A DNA stretch of 36,000 nt, taken from contig LADT01000022.1 of the NCBI GenBank assembly GCA_000961765.1, forward strand, positions 1 through 36,000. The letters run 5' to 3'. Below the pieces are notes generated by a model. That model worked only from the letters and a program-made list of their open reading frames with translations, had not been told where the DNA came from and ran no database searches. Source of the DNA: Clostridiaceae bacterium BRH_c20a (GTDB lineage Bacteria > Bacillota > Peptococcia > Peptococcales > BICA1-8). Position numbers and translations under genes: made by a program. This document shows, piece after piece, positions 4,655 through 25,305 of this stretch; position 1 is the first letter of the stretch, and each line of letters starts with the position of its first letter.

Positions 4655-4925
4655 CCGAACATAAAGAAAACATTACAAATTATTACCACTCCCAATAAAA
4701 AATGAAGGTTTTTTCTTTATCCTTTGCTGTTTTAACGGCATACACGGCTATAATGTCATCCAGTTATCTACCCGCATATTATCTTAATTTCCACCTGATA
4801 GGTTTTATAGGGCAAAACCTTTCTTGATTTTTGGGCAAAAGAAAAAGGCGCTGATTCTCAGTGCCCTTAACTATAGTCATCTGTGTAATCACAAGCCTCT
4901 TTATCACTGCCCGCCATCCTTTATT
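4655..4925. other. intergenic, no gene seen
   Basis: AT-rich stretch with stops in all frames. I see no convincing promoter, hairpin or gene here. It separates the lipoprotein relic from the decayed genes that follow. Confidence 0.5.
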
Positions 4926-16901: not shown

Positions 16902-17795
16902 ATGAACTTTACCCATTTAAGGTCCTTTTACTATGTGGGGAAATATTTGAGTTTTTCTGAAGCAGCAAAAAATTTATATATTAGTCAGCCCACAGTTTCC
17001 ATACAAGTAAGAAGATTAGAAGAAGAATTACAAGTTAAGTTAATTGAACAATTGGGAAAGAAAGTCTATCTGACTGATGCAGGTAAAAGGTTATACAGTT
17101 ATGCAACTGAAATATTTAAGCTTGCAAAAGAAGCTAATTTAATGATAAATGATATTAGTGATTTTAACATTGGGCAAGTTTTATTAGGTGCTGGCACAAC
17201 AGCAGGCATTTATTTGCTTCCTGAATTACTTGGTTCTTTTAAAGCAGACTATCCAAAAGTAGAAATTAAATTACAAATAGGTAATTCTAAACATATTACT
17301 CAAAGGCTACTTGATAATGAAATTGATTTTGCAGTAATTGGTGAGGGGCTGGATTTAGATTTAGATTTAAGATCTCAATCAATAACTAAAGATGAGTTAG
17401 TTTTAATAGTCTCACCTAATCATCCTTTGGCTATAAAAACTGAAGTATCTATTTTAGATTTATGTAATGAAACATTTATTTTAAGGGAAAGAGGTTCTAG
17501 TTCTAGGGAAATTTTCGAAAACTCTATTATAAAAAATAATGTAAAAATAAATGTAGCAATGGAGTTCAATTGTGTAGAAGCTATTAAAAAAGCAGTTTCA
17601 GCAAATTTAGGTGTTTCTGTTGTTTCTAACAGTTCCTTTAAATTAGAAAAGCAACAAAATGTAATTGCCAGTCTAAAAATCAAAGACCTTGATTTGGTGA
17701 GAAATATTTATTTGGTTTATCATAAAGACAAAGAATTTGCAAATGTTATTAAGAATTGTATCAAGTATATATCTTTAGGAATAGACATTAAGTGA
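16902..17795 (+). CDS. LysR-family transcriptional regulator
   Basis: The 297-residue protein has the winged HTH at 1-60 (FTHLRSFYYVGKYLSFSEAA, then LYISQPTVSIQVRRLEEEL) and a two-lobed effector domain (about 90-290), with GQVLLGAGTTAGIYLLPELL as its entry. It resembles the CysL/CbbR branch of LysR proteins that respond to sulfur or carbon metabolites; the ligand is not evident. ATG after AGAGGTGAG. It is transcribed away from operons A-C, and I infer it controls them through elements A, B and C. Confidence 0.93.
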   Translation: MNFTHLRSFYYVGKYLSFSEAAKNLYISQPTVSIQVRRLEEELQVKLIEQLGKKVYLTDAGKRLYSYATEIFKLAKEANLMINDISDFNIGQVLLGAGTTAGIYLLPELLGSFKADYPKVEIKLQIGNSKHITQRLLDNEIDFAVIGEGLDLDLDLRSQSITKDELVLIVSPNHPLAIKTEVSILDLCNETFILRERGSSSREIFENSIIKNNVKINVAMEFNCVEAIKKAVSANLGVSVVSNSSFKLEKQQNVIASLKIKDLDLVRNIYLVYHKDKEFANVIKNCIKYISLGIDIK

Positions 17796-17882: not shown

Positions 17883-19091
17883 TTAAAAACCGTAAAATGC
17901 AATTCCACCAATAATACAAAAAGAAACAACTTTCCATGGGGCAACTCTCCAAAACATTAGCATACCAAAGGCGATAAGGGCTAAGCTAAAGTCAAAAGGA
18001 TTATTTATTGCTTTGGTCCAAATAGGGTCATATAGTGCTGCTAATAATATCCCCACTACAGCTGCATTAATACCAGTTATTGCTGATTGAAACTTTGAAT
18101 TCATTCTTATAGCTTGCCAAAAAGGCAAACCACCGATAATGATTAAAAATGAAGGGAGAAATATGGCAACAGTTGCAGTCAAAGAACCTATTAACCCCTT
18201 TGCAACTGCACCCAAATATGCTGCAAAAGTAAACAATGGACCTGGTACAGCTTGAGCGGCACCATAACCTGCAATAAATTGAGTTTGACTTGCCCAGCCT
18301 ACAGGCACAACCTCAGCTTGGAGTAAAGGAAGAACAACATGACCCCCACCAAAAACTAATGAACCGACACGGAAAAAACTATCAAAAATTGCAAGAAGTT
18401 GATTGTCACTTACTTGTCTTAAAAGTGGTAAGCCCAATAGTAGAACAATAAATATAACCCATGAAGCCAAAGATATACCTCTACTAATAGGTATATTGAT
18501 GCCTAGCGAAGAATCCTCAACTTCTATTTTAGGGAGAAATAACCACCCAAATATTCCTGCAAGTAAAATAATTAATATTTGTTTCATGGTGAAAGGTAGT
18601 AATAAAGTAAGGACAGCAGAAAAAACTACTATAGTCGCTCTAGTTTTATCAGGAGCTAAAGATTTTGCCATTCCCCATACAGCATGGGCTACAACGGCAA
18701 CAGCAACTATAGTAAGACCATGAAGCCAGCCTGCATTACTAATATCATATCCTTGAACGAAGGTAGCAAAAAGGAATAATACAAAAGCTGAGGGAAATGT
18801 AAAACCAATCCAGGATGCAACTCCCCCCATCAATCCAGCCCGTAAAATACCAATTGCTATACCTACCTGACTGCTTGCGGGTCCAGGTAGAAATTGACAG
18901 AGAGCTACTAAATCAGCATAGCTTTTCTCATCTAACCATTTGCGCTTTTCTACATACTCATTTCTAAAGTACCCCAAGTGTGCTATAGGACCTCCAAAGG
19001 ATGTTAAGCCTAATCTTGAGGCTACACTAAACACTTCAATCATCTTTCGGAAGAAGTTAGTATCTTTATTCAGGTTATCATTTTTTTGCAC
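17883..19091 (-). CDS. chrA: chromate transporter family protein (CHR, two-domain form)
   Basis: The 402-residue product has two homologous CHR halves. The N-terminal half has FGGPIAHLGYFRNEYV, then LPGPASSQVGIAIG. The C-terminal half has FGGGHVVLPLLQ, then GYGAAQAVPGPLFTFAAYLG. About ten to twelve membrane segments. Known members export chromate, a sulfate analogue, so a sulfate-like anion is a reasonable natural substrate next to the sulfur island. Start is GTG 19091 after AAGGAGG. A weak look-alike of the LysR dyad lies at about 19180-19195 but without the promoter blocks. Confidence 0.92.
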   Translation of the reverse strand: MQKNDNLNKDTNFFRKMIEVFSVASRLGLTSFGGPIAHLGYFRNEYVEKRKWLDEKSYADLVALCQFLPGPASSQVGIAIGILRAGLMGGVASWIGFTFPSAFVLFLFATFVQGYDISNAGWLHGLTIVAVAVVAHAVWGMAKSLAPDKTRATIVVFSAVLTLLLPFTMKQILIILLAGIFGWLFLPKIEVEDSSLGINIPISRGISLASWVIFIVLLLGLPLLRQVSDNQLLAIFDSFFRVGSLVFGGGHVVLPLLQAEVVPVGWASQTQFIAGYGAAQAVPGPLFTFAAYLGAVAKGLIGSLTATVAIFLPSFLIIIGGLPFWQAIRMNSKFQSAITGINAAVVGILLAALYDPIWTKAINNPFDFSLALIAFGMLMFWRVAPWKVVSFCIIGGIAFYGF

Positions 19092-19359: not shown

Positions 19360-19420
19360 TTGCCTTCAAAAAGATACTTTGTTAAAATAATATCGTATTC
19401 CGATATCATATCGCGATACC
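19360..19420 (+). promoter_or_regulatory. fetAB promoter with PadR-type dyad
   Basis: TTGCCT (19360-19365), 17 bases, TAAAAT (19383-19388). Directly after the -10 box lies the dyad ATATCG-TATTC-CGATAT (19390-19406), then ATATCGCGATAC (19408-19419). The same dyad with the same five-base spacer is at 25160-25176, in front of padR. This position would suit a repressor. The region 19092-19359 holds nothing else that I recognise; 19421-19579 is leader with a possible 15-codon frame at 19502. Confidence 0.75.
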
Positions 19421-19579
19421 TAAAATTATATATATGGGTAGGAAAAAATGCAATACTAAATTTTAAGGAATATTTAATCTAAGGTATTTTAGAAAAAGGA
19501 AATGACCGTTAAGGATAAGATTAGAAATGAGGAATCGAAAGAGGCTTAAGAATTTATAAGATTAGGGGGTAAAATTTAA

Positions 19580-20206
19580 GTGTTTTTACTTAAAGACGTG
19601 AAATACAAAGATATTTTATATATTAAGGACCTAGAGATTCCTAGGAAGAAAATTACTTCTATTGTAGGAGAAAGTGGTAGCGGAAAATCCACACTGCTAA
19701 AACTTTTAAATAAATTAATAAGTTGTGATACTGGAGATGTCTTTTATAATAATCAACCACTTAGTGAAATAGACTCAGTTGAATTAAGAAGAAATGTAGT
19801 ACTGCTTCCCCAATCTCCTTCTATCTTTAGTGGGAGTATTAAAGATAACCTCTTGATAGGACTAAAGTTTTCTGAAAAGCCGCTAGCTTCCGATAAGAAG
19901 TTAGTTGAAGTGCTAAAGCTGGTCAAATTGAACAAGGAATTAAGTGAATATGCAAATAATTTATCTGGTGGAGAAAAACAAAGACTAGCTATTGGTAGAG
20001 TACTTCTGCTGGAGCCCGAAGTATTACTATTAGATGAGCCTTCCTCAGCTCTTGATGAGGATACAGAAAACATGATTATTATGGCATTAGTAAACTATAC
20101 TAGGGAAAAAAATAAGACCCTTATAATGATCACTCATTCTAAAAATGTAGCCTATCAATTTTCTGATAGAATTATTGAAATAAAAAAAGGGACAGTAATA
20201 AATTAG
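19580..20206 (+). CDS. fetA: ABC transporter ATP-binding protein, FetA type
   Basis: The 208-residue protein has Walker A GESGSGKST (30-38), Q-loop LLPQSPSIF, signature LSGGEKQR, Walker B VLLLDEPSSALD and H-loop MITHS. It is a stand-alone ATPase paired with the FetB-type permease gene 15 bases downstream. FetAB is known in E. coli as an iron exporter that protects against oxidative stress. GTG start, with GGGGG twelve bases upstream, a rather long spacing. The upstream dyad suggests PadR control. Confidence 0.88.
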   Translation: MFLLKDVKYKDILYIKDLEIPRKKITSIVGESGSGKSTLLKLLNKLISCDTGDVFYNNQPLSEIDSVELRRNVVLLPQSPSIFSGSIKDNLLIGLKFSEKPLASDKKLVEVLKLVKLNKELSEYANNLSGGEKQRLAIGRVLLLEPEVLLLDEPSSALDEDTENMIIMALVNYTREKNKTLIMITHSKNVAYQFSDRIIEIKKGTVIN

Positions 20207-20221
20207 AAGGGGGTGTAGTCT

Positions 20222-21007
20222 ATGAACGGAGTAATAGACTTACAATTATGGCAAATGGCAGCAGCCTATCTTTTCATTGTAATTTTACTCTTTATTGTAA
20301 GAGCGAGAGGTATCTCACGGGAAAGAGAAATTTTAGTTTCTACAATACGAATGACAATCCAACTTATATTAACAGGCTATATTCTTGTCTTTTTATTTGA
20401 AAATATAAACCCACTATACACAATTTCTGTAATAGCAATTATGGAAGCATTTGCTATTTATAATATTTTCACAAGAACAAAAGTGAAACTTTCGAGACCG
20501 CTCAAAAATATAATTGCTTTTTCTATGCTATTTGGAACTTTATCAAGCCTTATGTTTTTCTTACTTGTGGTAATTAATATTTCACCTTGGTATGATCCTA
20601 GATACTATATACCCATTGCAGGAATGCTTATTGGTAATTCAATGACTGGTATTTCATTAGGTGTCAACAGGCTTGTAGATGGGATGATTTCTCAGAGGCA
20701 TCTTGTTGAATCTGCATTAATGCTTGGTGCAACTCCCAAAATGGCAGCGAAAGATTATGTCAATAATGCTTTTGATGCTGCCATTCTTCCAACAGTTAAC
20801 TCTATGGTCGGAATGGGTATTGTCTTTTTGCCAGGAATGATGACAGGACAAATTCTCTCTGGTATATCTCCTATAACTGCAATTGAGTACCAAATAGCAA
20901 TCATGCTTGGTATTGTTGGAAGTGTTGCATTAACTGTAATATTATTTGTTCAACTAGGCTATAAAACATTCTTTAATGAGCATAGTCAGTTAATAATTAG
21001 TGATTAG
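20222..21007 (+). CDS. fetB: ABC transporter permease, FetB/UPF0014 family
   Basis: The 261-residue product has about seven membrane segments and the family signature runs GMLIGNSMTGISLGVNRL and ESALMLGATPKMAAKD, then MVGMGIVFLPGMMTGQILSG. Length matches the family. It forms the membrane part of the transporter with FetA. The substrate in characterised members is iron; given the DoxX/DoxD and redox genes nearby, a metal or redox stress role is plausible. ATG after GGGGG. Confidence 0.92.
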   Translation: MNGVIDLQLWQMAAAYLFIVILLFIVRARGISREREILVSTIRMTIQLILTGYILVFLFENINPLYTISVIAIMEAFAIYNIFTRTKVKLSRPLKNIIAFSMLFGTLSSLMFFLLVVINISPWYDPRYYIPIAGMLIGNSMTGISLGVNRLVDGMISQRHLVESALMLGATPKMAAKDYVNNAFDAAILPTVNSMVGMGIVFLPGMMTGQILSGISPITAIEYQIAIMLGIVGSVALTVILFVQLGYKTFFNEHSQLIISD

Positions 21008-21087
21008 AAAAAAACAATTTAATTATTCCCCGCAATCATTAAATAGTCCTGAGGTCTATATCCAAACCTCAAATCCGATATTTTCTT

Positions 21088-21143
21088 TTGACAATTTAAT
21101 TAATATATAAAATAATAAGTTAAAACCTTGTTAAACTAAACAA
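21088..21143 (+). promoter_or_regulatory. promoter of the two-component system with palindromic box
   Basis: TTGACA (21088-21093), 17 bases, AATAAT (21111-21116). Twelve bases on lies TTGTTAAACTAAACAA (21128-21143), with arms TTGTT/AACAA. A partial match, TTGTTAAACGAA, lies upstream of the DoxX/DoxD gene at 23279-23290. This might be the response regulator's binding site. Confidence 0.55.
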
Positions 21144-21173
21144 ACCAATATATCTTATTTAAGGTGAATACAA

Positions 21174-21349
21174 ATGCTATATTTTTATGAATTTTTTTAT
21201 AAAGCCTTCAGTGGCTAGCGTTTTTTGCAATTATTCATGCTTTCGCAGATTGGGGACATGTTTTCATTCCAATTCAACAACAATACTCTAGCGAACAAAC
21301 ATACCTAATACTTCGTATTCTTAGGATTATTGTTAATGCCTTATCTTTT
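21174..21349 (+). other. frameshifted 5' end of the histidine kinase gene
   Basis: ATG 21174 follows AAGGTG and reads YFYEFFYKAFSG then TAG at about 21216. The next frame, open from 21202 or so, reads WLAFFAIIHAFADWGHVF and continues without break into the kinase. One added base in GTGGCTAG joins them. The kinase thus lost its first membrane segment from the intact frame. Confidence 0.75.
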
Positions 21350-22519
21350 ATGTTTATAGTTCAGTTTGGTGTATCGCTATGGATTAATACCAAAAATAAG
21401 TGTGGAAAATTGAGGTTAATGCCAATAACTATTTTTACTTTATGGTTATCCTACCTTTTTATTACTATCCTATCCTATGATTATAGGAGTAATCTTGAGT
21501 GGATACGAATTGGCGATATTTGGTCCAGATATTTAATGGCTTTTCCAGGTGCTTTTCTATCGGGTTATGCAATTTTACTACAGAAAAACGAATTTAAAAA
21601 ATTTGGTTTTACTAGATTTCTTTGGTCTTTACAAATTGCAGCTATTTCTTTCATTATTTACAGCTTGTCCGCAGGACTAATTGTACCTTCTGGGTCGGTT
21701 GGTCTATCTACTCTAATAAATTCTGATATGTTTTTCCAAATGACTGGAATACCCATTGAAATTATAAGAGGTATTAGTGGACTCGTTCTTTCCATTTCTA
21801 TAGTTATAATTTTACAAGTATTTGATAAAGAGTACATTCTTCGTATCCAAGAAATCGAGATAGCTAAAGCAAGATTAGAAGAAAGAAATAATCTAGCACA
21901 AGATTTGCATGATGATATTATTCAGTCTTTGTATGCTACTAACTTAGAAATAGAGGATATTAAACTATCGGTTGATAAAATAAATGATAAAAAATCTCAG
22001 GAAGTATCGGAAAAATTGTCTTTTCTTTTAAAAAACAGAAGTAAAATAATAGATCAAATTCGTGAATATATTGGTGAGCTAAAGATGGCTAATCGTGTCG
22101 AAGTATCTTTGCGGAAGCGCCTAGAAAATTTGATTAATGAATTTGATTTAAAAAACAAAATGTATGTAAAATGTGAGTTTGATTTAAAAGATGAGCTAGT
22201 TTCTTTAACTACCCAATACCATTTAACTCTAATCTTAAAAGAAGCTGTAAGTAATGTTATTAGACATGCTAAAGCTCAGAACTTCTTGGTAAGAATAAGT
22301 AGTAATGACACAGATTTGATATTAGAAATTAGTGATGATGGAGTCGGGTTTAACGAAAGACCCGATAAAAATTACTACAAGAAGGGTTTAGCACAGGGTC
22401 TGAATAATATAAAGAAAAGAGTAGAAATTTTAAATGGCTTCATAGAAATTAAAACCAAGGTTAACGAGGGAACTAAAATTATTATTAAGATACCAATTAA
22501 CGGAGGTCAGTATGATTAG
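21350..22519 (+). CDS. NarL-family sensor histidine kinase (membrane sensor, HisKA_3)
   Basis: Coordinates give the in-frame part from the first ATG; the true start is probably 21174, beyond a frameshift. The N-terminal 155 residues hold about five membrane segments and little extracellular mass, so it may sense inside the membrane. Then comes a short coiled coil and the HisKA_3 H-box ERNNLAQDLHDDIIQSLY (His 187), followed by HATPase_c with EAVSNVIRHAK and DDGVGF. Its last codons overlap the response regulator gene by eight bases, so they are a pair. RBS and promoter lie at 21160 and 21088. Confidence 0.88.
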   Translation: MFIVQFGVSLWINTKNKCGKLRLMPITIFTLWLSYLFITILSYDYRSNLEWIRIGDIWSRYLMAFPGAFLSGYAILLQKNEFKKFGFTRFLWSLQIAAISFIIYSLSAGLIVPSGSVGLSTLINSDMFFQMTGIPIEIIRGISGLVLSISIVIILQVFDKEYILRIQEIEIAKARLEERNNLAQDLHDDIIQSLYATNLEIEDIKLSVDKINDKKSQEVSEKLSFLLKNRSKIIDQIREYIGELKMANRVEVSLRKRLENLINEFDLKNKMYVKCEFDLKDELVSLTTQYHLTLILKEAVSNVIRHAKAQNFLVRISSNDTDLILEISDDGVGFNERPDKNYYKKGLAQGLNNIKKRVEILNGFIEIKTKVNEGTKIIIKIPINGGQYD

Positions 22520-23183
22520 ATTAATGATTGTTGATGACCAGAAAGTAGTCCGCGTAGGATTAATTAATATTTTAAAGCATTACCCTAATCTTAATGTTAT
22601 AGGTGAAGCAGGTTCACAAGATGAAGCTATTAAAAAATCTACGGAGATTAAGCCTGATGTAATTCTCATGGATGTAAAGCTATCAACTGTGGGACAGATT
22701 AGCCAAAATAACGGAATATCTGCCTGCCGTAAAATAAAAGAAATTTTACCCAATACAAAAATAATTATGCTTAGCTCATTTGCTGATGATGAATTAATTC
22801 ATGAATCCATCTTAGCTGGTGCTAATGGATACTTATTAAAAGGAATAGATAGTAAAGAATTAATAAAATCCATTGAAATGGTCATTGATGGAAAATCAGT
22901 TTTAGATCCAAATATAATTGATAAAGTATTAGTAACGATGAGGAAAATGTCAAAACAGCAAACACTTTTGGATAAATTAACAAAACAGGAAATAGAGATT
23001 CTGAAATTGATAGCCTTAGGTAAAAAAAATAAAGAAATCTCCTCTGCAATGTGTCTAGGTGAAAAAACCATAAGAAATTATATAAGTCAGATATTATCGA
23101 AGTTAAATGTTAGTAATCGGGTAGAAGCAGCCAATTTCGCTTTACAGAATGATTTATTTAATTTTAAAAAGGACATGTCCTGA
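22512..23183 (+). CDS. NarL/FixJ-family response regulator
   Basis: The 223-residue protein has a receiver domain: acidic pair DD at 8-9, phosphoacceptor D54 in ILMDVKLS, and lysine in YLLKG. After D54 there is an insertion (STVGQISQNNGIS) where most relatives have a short PGMDG-type loop. The C-terminus is a LuxR-type HTH (LTKQEIEILKLIALGKKNKE ... EKTIRNYISQILSKLNVSNR). It starts inside the kinase gene and ends in a terminator. Its target may be its own promoter and the DoxX/DoxD gene just downstream. Confidence 0.93.
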   Translation: MIRLMIVDDQKVVRVGLINILKHYPNLNVIGEAGSQDEAIKKSTEIKPDVILMDVKLSTVGQISQNNGISACRKIKEILPNTKIIMLSSFADDELIHESILAGANGYLLKGIDSKELIKSIEMVIDGKSVLDPNIIDKVLVTMRKMSKQQTLLDKLTKQEIEILKLIALGKKNKEISSAMCLGEKTIRNYISQILSKLNVSNRVEAANFALQNDLFNFKKDMS

Positions 23184-23207
23184 TTTTTTGCTGGATATGT
23201 CCTTTTT
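23166..23207 (+). terminator. terminator after the response regulator gene
   Basis: AAAAAGGACAT and ATGTCCTTTTT form an eleven-base stem around a 20-base loop; the stem begins in the last codons of the gene. Confidence 0.85.
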
Positions 23208-23372
23208 ATTTGTGACATTTTTTGAACTGAGGAAATGAGTATTAACACTATTAAATAAACGGGTAGTAAAGGATAATCTTGTTAAACGAATATTCACCAT
23301 TTCATGAACAAAGTTGTTATATATTTCACAGCAAGGTGGGTATTCAAAAAAAAACCTAAGGAGGAGATGAAA

Positions 23373-24761
23373 TTGTCAAGAGACGGTAACAAAAATTATT
23401 CTTCAACTAGTCCGTGGATTGCATTTGTTAGAATTTTTTTAGGTGCTTTTTGGCTGTATGAGGTTACAATTGGTCATAACTGGAAAACAGGTAGTTTTAC
23501 CTCAGGTCCCCACCCTGGTTTGTTTGGTCCTGAAGCAGGTAGTTATTTAATTGAACAAGGTAATGCAGGAATAGAAGCAGGTGGCTGGGCTTGGTTTGGT
23601 TGGTTTTTAGAAAATATTATGTATCCTAACGCTGCTCTTTGGGGTTACTTTGCAGTTGCAGTACAACTTATTTTAGCTTTTGCTTTTCTTTTTGGGATAT
23701 TTGTTCGACCAATGGCTTTATTGGGATTAAGCATGGACTTATTTATCTTCTTCCTAGGTAATTCTCGAATACCTCCCTTCTTCTCACTTGGGCACTTATT
23801 TGTACTATTTACAGACGCTGGTATGCATCATGGTATTGATGCCTGGATTATTGATAAGTATAAAGAAACCAAAAGTTTTACTTCCAATCTACTAAGGTCT
23901 ATTATCACACTAAATTTCATTACACCTTCTATGAGACGCATAATTGCATCCATTTGCACTATTCTCTCAGTTTACTTTTTATTAGAACTGGCAATGATAT
24001 CATCTGGTAAAATGAAGATGGTTAGTATGGATTTAGCCGTTTTATTTGGCTTTGTTGCCTTTGGTCTTTTTGTTTACAAGGATAAAATGGATAAAGTTTC
24101 TTTAACGGTTTCCCTTTTGCGAATTTGGCTTGGGTATAGATTCTTACATGAGGCTATTGTTCGTAATGTACCAGCTGTAAACGGCTTGCCTGGTTGGGGA
24201 ACGAAGCAACAACTAACTGAAGTATTTCAGTTTATTAGCGAAAAACATTGGGGTATTTTCTCAAGCATAGTGGCAAACTTATTTACTCCTATGGCTGGTA
24301 TTTGGTTAACAATCTTTATTATTGTAAATACATTGGTTGCTATTATGCTTATCCTTGGAATACGAACTCGCCTAGCAAGTAAAATAGGTCTTATATACTT
24401 GTCCCTGCTCATTGTAATTGGTTTTACCCGTTATGCACCTTTTGTTTTCGGATATTTATTTGCTGTTTATACTCTCGATGGCGGCAAATTATTTAGCTTT
24501 GATAGCCTAAAGGATTATAAGCCGAAAATTGGAATCAGCTTATCCAATACTGCAATAGTTACTTTATTTGCTGTAGCTGTCATAGCAGTTGTAGCAGCCA
24601 ATGTTGATCGAATCCTCCCCGATGGATATAAAACCAGCATGGGTCCAGTAATGGGGGCTATGGTAGCGATGTTAACTTCTATAATTGGTTTATGCGGTGC
24701 ATGGCAAAATGGATTTGCATTCGTATTTGGTGCAAATAAAAAAGCTCAGCTAGCAAAGTAA
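23373..24761 (+). CDS. DoxX/DoxD-like membrane protein, two modules
   Basis: I choose TTG 23373, eight bases after AGGAGG; ATG 23367 is only two bases from it and 23304 has no ribosome site. The 462-residue product has two DoxX-like modules in tandem, each opening with an arginine-glycine-rich helix (FVRIFLGAFWLYEVTIG; LLRIWLGYRFLHEAIV), with eight or more membrane segments in all. DoxD with DoxA forms the thiosulfate:quinone oxidoreductase of Acidianus, and DoxX-type proteins also occur in sulfur-detoxification complexes. No DoxA is adjacent, so the activity is uncertain. Its neighbours (two-component system, PadR) suggest stress-responsive expression. Confidence 0.8.
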   Translation: MSRDGNKNYSSTSPWIAFVRIFLGAFWLYEVTIGHNWKTGSFTSGPHPGLFGPEAGSYLIEQGNAGIEAGGWAWFGWFLENIMYPNAALWGYFAVAVQLILAFAFLFGIFVRPMALLGLSMDLFIFFLGNSRIPPFFSLGHLFVLFTDAGMHHGIDAWIIDKYKETKSFTSNLLRSIITLNFITPSMRRIIASICTILSVYFLLELAMISSGKMKMVSMDLAVLFGFVAFGLFVYKDKMDKVSLTVSLLRIWLGYRFLHEAIVRNVPAVNGLPGWGTKQQLTEVFQFISEKHWGIFSSIVANLFTPMAGIWLTIFIIVNTLVAIMLILGIRTRLASKIGLIYLSLLIVIGFTRYAPFVFGYLFAVYTLDGGKLFSFDSLKDYKPKIGISLSNTAIVTLFAVAVIAVVAANVDRILPDGYKTSMGPVMGAMVAMLTSIIGLCGAWQNGFAFVFGANKKAQLAK

Positions 24762-24782
24762 ATAAATTAGTCTACTTTTATA

Positions 24783-24818
24783 AAAAACCACTTAGCAAAA
24801 AATCACTAAGTGGTTTTT
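24783..24818. terminator. bidirectional terminator between the DoxX/DoxD gene and padR
   Basis: AAAAACCACTTAG and CTAAGTGGTTTTT form a perfect 13-base stem with ten-base loop. Both flanks serve as U-tracts for converging genes. Confidence 0.92.
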
Positions 24819-24823
24819 ATAGT

Positions 24824-25132
24824 TCAATCCTTAATTTCTTTAAAAAGTTCAAAGGCTTTCCTCTTTGCTTCTTCTAAAACTTCAATTCCTTGATTAGTAA
24901 TTTTATAATACTTTCTTATCTTACCTTCGACATTTTTTTCTTCTATCTCTAAAAGCCCTTTTGATTCCATTTTGTGAAGTATCGGATAAAGTGTCCCAGG
25001 ACTCATATCATATCCATGACCCTGAAGTTCTTCTATCATCCACGAGCCAAAAAAGGGTTCTTTCTTTGCATGATGAAGAATGTGTATTTTTATGAATCCA
25101 AGAAATAATTTCCTAATAATCTGTTCCTGCAT
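24824..25132 (-). CDS. PadR-family transcriptional regulator
   Basis: I start at ATG 25132 (AAGGTG seven bases upstream), giving a standard 102-residue PadR. Features: HHAKKEPFFGSWMIEELQ, the winged-helix core MSPGTLYPILHKMESKGLLE, then wing KIRKYYKITNQG and a C-terminal dimer helix. The frame could run to ATG 25168, but that codon lies within the operator dyad. PadR proteins usually repress their own gene and transporter genes and release DNA on binding a small molecule. The operator shared with fetAB identifies that operon as the likely target. Confidence 0.9.
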   Translation of the reverse strand: MQEQIIRKLFLGFIKIHILHHAKKEPFFGSWMIEELQGHGYDMSPGTLYPILHKMESKGLLEIEEKNVEGKIRKYYKITNQGIEVLEEAKRKAFELFKEIKD

Positions 25133-25159
25133 GACTATCACCTTACCTGCTGTTTTTTG

Positions 25160-25180
25160 ATATCGCATCCCGATATTATA
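25160..25180 (-). promoter_or_regulatory. padR operator dyad overlapping the -10 box
   Basis: ATATCG-CATCC-CGATAT (25160-25176), same half-sites and spacer as at 19390-19406. The minus-strand TATAAT (about 25175-25180) overlaps it. The -35 region is poor. The site is 28-44 bases before the ATG, as for autorepression. Confidence 0.75.
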
Positions 25181-25305
25181 AAGTTAGTATATCAGAACAT
25201 ATTTGTATAATCAAGTAAGTTGAACTGGCACAAAATTTTTCTTAGTCAAAAATAAATGGAAAACTAAAGCTTTATAGTTCCATAAAATTCATTTTCCTTT
25301 TATTC

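Follow-up and report, generated by a model that had tools for sequence, protein, structure and literature searches.

The dyad ATATCG-N5-CGATAT is very probably the operator of a PadR-type regulator, and fetAB and padR, each preceded by it in the window (the whole stretch of 36,000 nucleotides analysed here), very probably form a split, two-promoter regulon of that regulator. The assignment of the site rests on its conservation upstream of padR relatives and on its presence at padR-linked fetAB loci. We consider it highly likely that a PadR dimer binds the dyads and represses padR and fetAB until induced; the fetAB leader probably stems from an old padR-fetAB operon. The features concerned are as follows:

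17883–19091, minus strand: chrA-type chromate efflux transporter gene, divergent from fetAB (TIGR00937, 349.6 bits versus a cut-off of 171.7; full-length)
19360–19388, plus strand: candidate fetAB promoter, TTGCCT-N17-TAAAAT, TG-extended (consensus scan)
19390–19406, no strand: predicted fetAB operator, primary dyad, ATATCGTATTCCGATAT, exact ATATCG-N5-CGATAT
19403–19419, no strand: predicted fetAB operator, secondary dyad, ATATCATATCGCGATAC, two mismatches, offset by 13 bp
19448–19573, plus strand: probable decayed second padR, 5′ end ATGCAATACTAAATTTTAAGGAA..., with an internal deletion, stops and a 3′-end-like stretch at 19529–19573
19580–20206, plus strand: fetA-like ABC ATPase gene (PF00005, 107.5 bits)
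20222–21007, plus strand: fetB-like permease gene, UPF0014 family (PF03649, 286 bits versus a cut-off of 22.6)
24824–25132, minus strand: padR, 102 residues, MQEQIIRK... (PF03551, 71.3 bits versus a gathering cut-off of 27)
25160–25176, no strand: predicted padR operator, single dyad, ATATCGCATCCCGATAT, exact ATATCG-N5-CGATAT
25186–25214, minus strand: candidate padR promoter, TTGATT-N17-TATACT with TG extension (consensus scan)

The two exact dyads and the related second site in fetAB had been picked out in the initial annotation, and all three are present at these positions. The primary fetAB dyad, which the secondary dyad overlaps, has the highest PWM score in the window (23.9) and begins 1 bp past the extended −10 box of the candidate fetAB promoter, in agreement with its earlier placement just after that box. 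The padR dyad ranks second (19.4) and ends 28 bp from the padR start codon; it had been described as lying over the padR −10 region but is better placed just downstream of the candidate −10 box (25214–25186, minus strand). Both promoter assignments are only plausible, since promoter-like matches in the window are no more numerous in total than in shuffled sequences. The padR start at 25132 was set by alignment of 14 relatives; a longer open reading frame to 25168, proposed by the ORF finder, is unlikely, as its start would fall inside the operator.

In the proposed mechanism the product of 24824–25132, a PadR-type winged-helix repressor, would bind ATATCG-N5-CGATAT as a dimer, and the overlapping fetAB doublet may hold two dimers. 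With the dyads at the predicted transcription starts of fetAB and padR, bound PadR would block RNA polymerase, resulting in autoregulation and in control in trans of fetAB 5 kb away. PadR would be released by an inducer, perhaps a metal, an oxyanion or redox stress (for its relative ChrI, chromate), and FetAB-type export would then be switched on, perhaps together with the divergent chrA-type gene. Among the observations that count against this reading, the padR site is a single dyad whereas most relatives have a doublet, and the second fetAB dyad carries two mismatches.

At fetAB loci the presence of the site follows that of padR. We compared 30 other loci, 29 from the 398 genomes of a phylum sample plus the second fetAB of this genome. 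The site is present at each of the 14 that have padR next to fetAB and at one of the 16 that do not (Fisher p = 2e-7), and this lone positive has a weak site 678 bp away. No operator was found at this genome's paralogue (C92:18671–19444, 67% identical), which adjoins riboflavin biosynthesis and molybdopterin oxidoreductase genes (L160), nor at an unlinked second fetAB copy in another genome (G272). The window fetAB is the exception, having the strongest site of the window and its intact padR 5 kb away. Apart from the weak site 678 bp off, it alone among the surveyed fetAB loci has a site without an adjacent intact padR, and the survey thus holds no second natural example of control in trans.

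A second, decayed padR likely lies between the fetAB operator and fetA. The start of the remnant, ATGCAATACTAAATTTTAAGGAA, matches padR starts of relatives at 24 of 30 bases and stands at the spacing from the operator expected of padR, as judged by alignment to the padR start of a relative (L050). With a PWM of padR 5′ ends the remnant ranks third of 71,942 window positions, and with a PWM of 3′ ends the stretch before fetA ranks ninth of 71,912. When the fetAB leader was aligned to padR-fetA junctions, the mean score was higher than in any of the 150 shuffles or 62 AT-rich controls; the best single alignment is not significant, being equalled or exceeded in 20 of the 150 shuffles, whereas the mean score and the anchored positions are. 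The matches to the 5′ and 3′ ends of padR anchor the leader better than an alignment to the middle of PadR, which was set aside. With a decayed padR between operator and fetA, the control region of fetAB is therefore probably that of a former padR-fetAB operon. The simplest history is that the operon's padR was lost to decay while another padR, still intact, assumed control in trans, so that the fetAB operator would have survived because this intact PadR acts on it. The PadR tree joins the intact PadR, at moderate support, to padR-fetAB operon members from Petroclostridium and another Clostridia genome.

The same remnant, with its stops and large deletion, would also suit a history in which the fetAB dyad is itself a relic, fetAB having become constitutive upon decay of the operon's padR, with PadR left to control padR alone; the two mismatches of the secondary dyad would agree with this. 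We regard this as unlikely. The primary dyad keeps all 12 of its specified positions, whereas the padR remnant matches at about 80% at best over its first 30 bases (24 of 30); the fetAB site still outscores every other in the window, which also retains, not far off, an intact padR preceded by the same site.

Comparison of PadR relatives points to the owner of the site. For 80 relatives with flanking sequence (53–82% identity) we took the best dyad in the 150 bp preceding padR: in 66 of the 80 it has at most one mismatch and in 38 it is exact, compared with at most one mismatch in 6 of 6,561 control stretches of like size. In 69 of the 74 loci with a site, a second dyad is offset by exactly 13 bp, the two having the central ATAT in common. 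Setting this genome aside, a scoring site accompanies 25 of 28 padR orthologue loci in the separate phylum sample of 398 genomes. A blind search of these genomes for the 30-bp doublet gave six matches versus none for the reversed pattern, four of them upstream of padR relatives and two unrelated to padR, at a toxin-antitoxin-like locus (L119) and at nanE/PTS genes (L120). The latter is a near-perfect 30-bp palindrome of the same hexamers upstream of the nanE/PTS genes (L120:1501–1530); no padR relative was found in the 3 kb around it, and it is possibly another regulator's site.

Two other gene products of the window bind DNA and are encoded close to the sites, a NarL-type response regulator (22512–23183) and a LysR-type protein (16902–17795), but ownership of the dyad by either is very improbable and we rejected it: padR alone is conserved beside the site, neither of the other regulators is, and the dyad precedes padR in Bacilli, Staphylococcus, Fusobacteria and Proteobacteria where both are absent. 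The earlier proposal that PadR owns the dyad and has fetAB under its control is strongly supported by comparison, with the site tracking padR over several phyla and occurring at padR-linked fetAB loci but at almost no others.

The dyad is also rare. The genome search suggested in the initial annotation, a pattern scan of 4,512,870 bases in 92 contigs, found two exact copies and no more in the 4.51 Mb, both in the window and 5.8 kb apart, so the dyad is not common. Of the three one-mismatch copies, one is at the end of mreD and the others fall within a ptb-like gene and a recombinase gene. A dinucleotide model predicts 0.096 exact copies per genome, and the chance of two within 6 kb is approximately 1e-5. 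Coincidence of the two dyads is a negligible prospect and was rejected: although the four window matches with up to two mismatches were reached in 4 of 100 shuffles, the finding of two exact sites so close together against that expectation, and above all the strong conservation and co-occurrence with padR in the comparative data, refute it.

The regulator belongs to the PadR family by both sequence (PF03551) and fold; its AlphaFold model (pLDDT 92.9) has the winged-helix fold and matches PadR structures, the best PDB match being Rv3488 (7wh4/5zi8). Rv3488 of Mycobacterium tuberculosis (PDB 5zhc, 5zi8, 7wh4) is the closest solved relative, with 41% identity and a TM-score of about 0.9, but the window PadR falls below the cut-off of the curated Rv3488 family (NF053635, 107.2 versus 140 bits) and is a relative rather than a member of that family. 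Among characterised systems the nearest is ChrI of Bacillus cereus SJ1, a PadR-family regulator of the chrIA1 operon, where Cr(VI) raises the transcripts of both chrI and chrA1 (PMC2936356), as would fit an autoregulated repressor. The likeness, a PadR-type regulator beside a chromate transporter, is one of gene type and context; Bacillaceae PadR-chrA operons among the relatives of the window PadR do have the dyad upstream. The ChrI paper describes neither an operator nor a link to FetAB (PMC2936356), and the window system differs in that fetAB is the partner of the operator and padR is a lone gene with a promoter of its own. The window regulator is kin to the chromate-induced ChrI and to Rv3488. 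Its relatives share invariant histidines (H17, H21, H39 and H53, padR numbering) and lack a conserved cysteine; these histidines are candidates for metal or oxyanion sensing.

padR stands mostly with fetAB or a chromate transporter gene, and the only widely recurrent genes around it are of the FetAB and CHR types. FetAB genes neighbour both close and remote relatives, on the same strand or divergently, and chromate transporter genes are in the padR operon in Bacilli and divergent in many Clostridia; in operons led by chrA the dyad precedes chrA (L042, L052, L164, L169, L171). These partners switch many times on the PadR tree (26 changes versus a shuffled mean of 46), in which many forks are unresolved. 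Sites accompany padR-chrA loci in Staphylococcus, Cetobacterium, Bradyrhizobium, Leclercia and an E. coli multidrug-resistance plasmid, and the site at a Comamonas locus is weak. In one Clostridia contig (L042) a doublet at 624–653 precedes the chromate transporter gene that leads padR-fetAB; a second doublet there (4854–4883) precedes a gene for a 99-residue membrane protein with no assigned family, downstream of uppP.

The chrA-type gene of the window, which the initial annotation had passed over, is in the cluster, 300 bp from the fetAB operator. Besides fetAB, chromate transporter genes are what this PadR recurs with. Relatives of its product (52–69% identical) are encoded directly after the dyad and padR in Bacilli and in two representatives of the class to which the window belongs, and on these comparisons the chrA-type gene is a possible member of the PadR regulon. 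No strong operator was found by PWM scan at the other chromate transporters of this genome, where the best site, at a pair on contig C81, scores just 9.5.

The window transporter resembles E. coli FetAB (YbbLM), a putative iron exporter, in combining a UPF0014 permease and an ABC ATPase in one operon, but its proteins are far under the FetA and FetB equivalog cut-offs (NF007601, 132.9 versus 292 bits; TIGR00245, 143.5 versus 410 bits). Because both miss these cut-offs, the name iron exporter is not established here and ‘iron-export-type’ is a superfamily label only. Of the earlier suggestion that PadR represses an iron-export-type transporter, the link between PadR and fetAB is thus supported by comparison and the iron export is not established.

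Neither the operator nor PadR control of FetAB was found described in the literature searched, which covered few subscription papers, and the shared operator and the FetAB branch appear to be undescribed. From the sequence comparisons, the operator very probably belongs to a widespread ChrI/Rv3488-like PadR lineage controlling FetAB- and ChrA-type exporters. We give even chances to the broader proposal that this lineage, spread over several phyla and using one fixed operator in 13-bp-offset doublets, controls UPF0014/FetAB and ChrA transporters that replace or accompany each other. If so, the FetAB-type transporters of this clade would answer the signal of the chromate transporters (oxyanion or redox/metal stress) and would not simply export iron. 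The predicted DNA site is that of a widespread regulator, to which the padR beside chrA on common multidrug-resistance plasmids also belongs, and would tie the poorly understood UPF0014/FetAB transporters to chromate transporters via one regulator. With it the regulon could be read from any genome, and the inducer, and hence the true substrate of the exporters, could be sought directly.

On one such plasmid, E. coli pGN4554-5 (L164), a chrA-padR unit encodes the same PadR and ChrA types and has the same dyad, ATATCGAATTTCGTTAT, 68 bp before chrA; it differs in having no FetAB, in its order of chrA then padR, and in a PadR relative about 47% identical. The operator ATATCGAATTTCGTTAT and a weaker second copy (L164:1723–1752) lie downstream of sul1 and near mph(A)-region genes. 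Relatives of the window PadR occur in 1,836 plasmid records.

The two-component system (21350–23183) and DoxX/DoxD-like gene (23304–24761) do lie between the two sites, as had been stated, but no operator was found at either in a site scan of the window, and neither is a recurrent partner. The window's two-component system follows fetAB, and one directly follows padR-fetAB in two Clostridia genomes (L047, L055). The DoxX/DoxD-like gene adjoins padR convergently, and a DoxX-family gene directly precedes a padR of the same type on a Salinimonas plasmid (L168).
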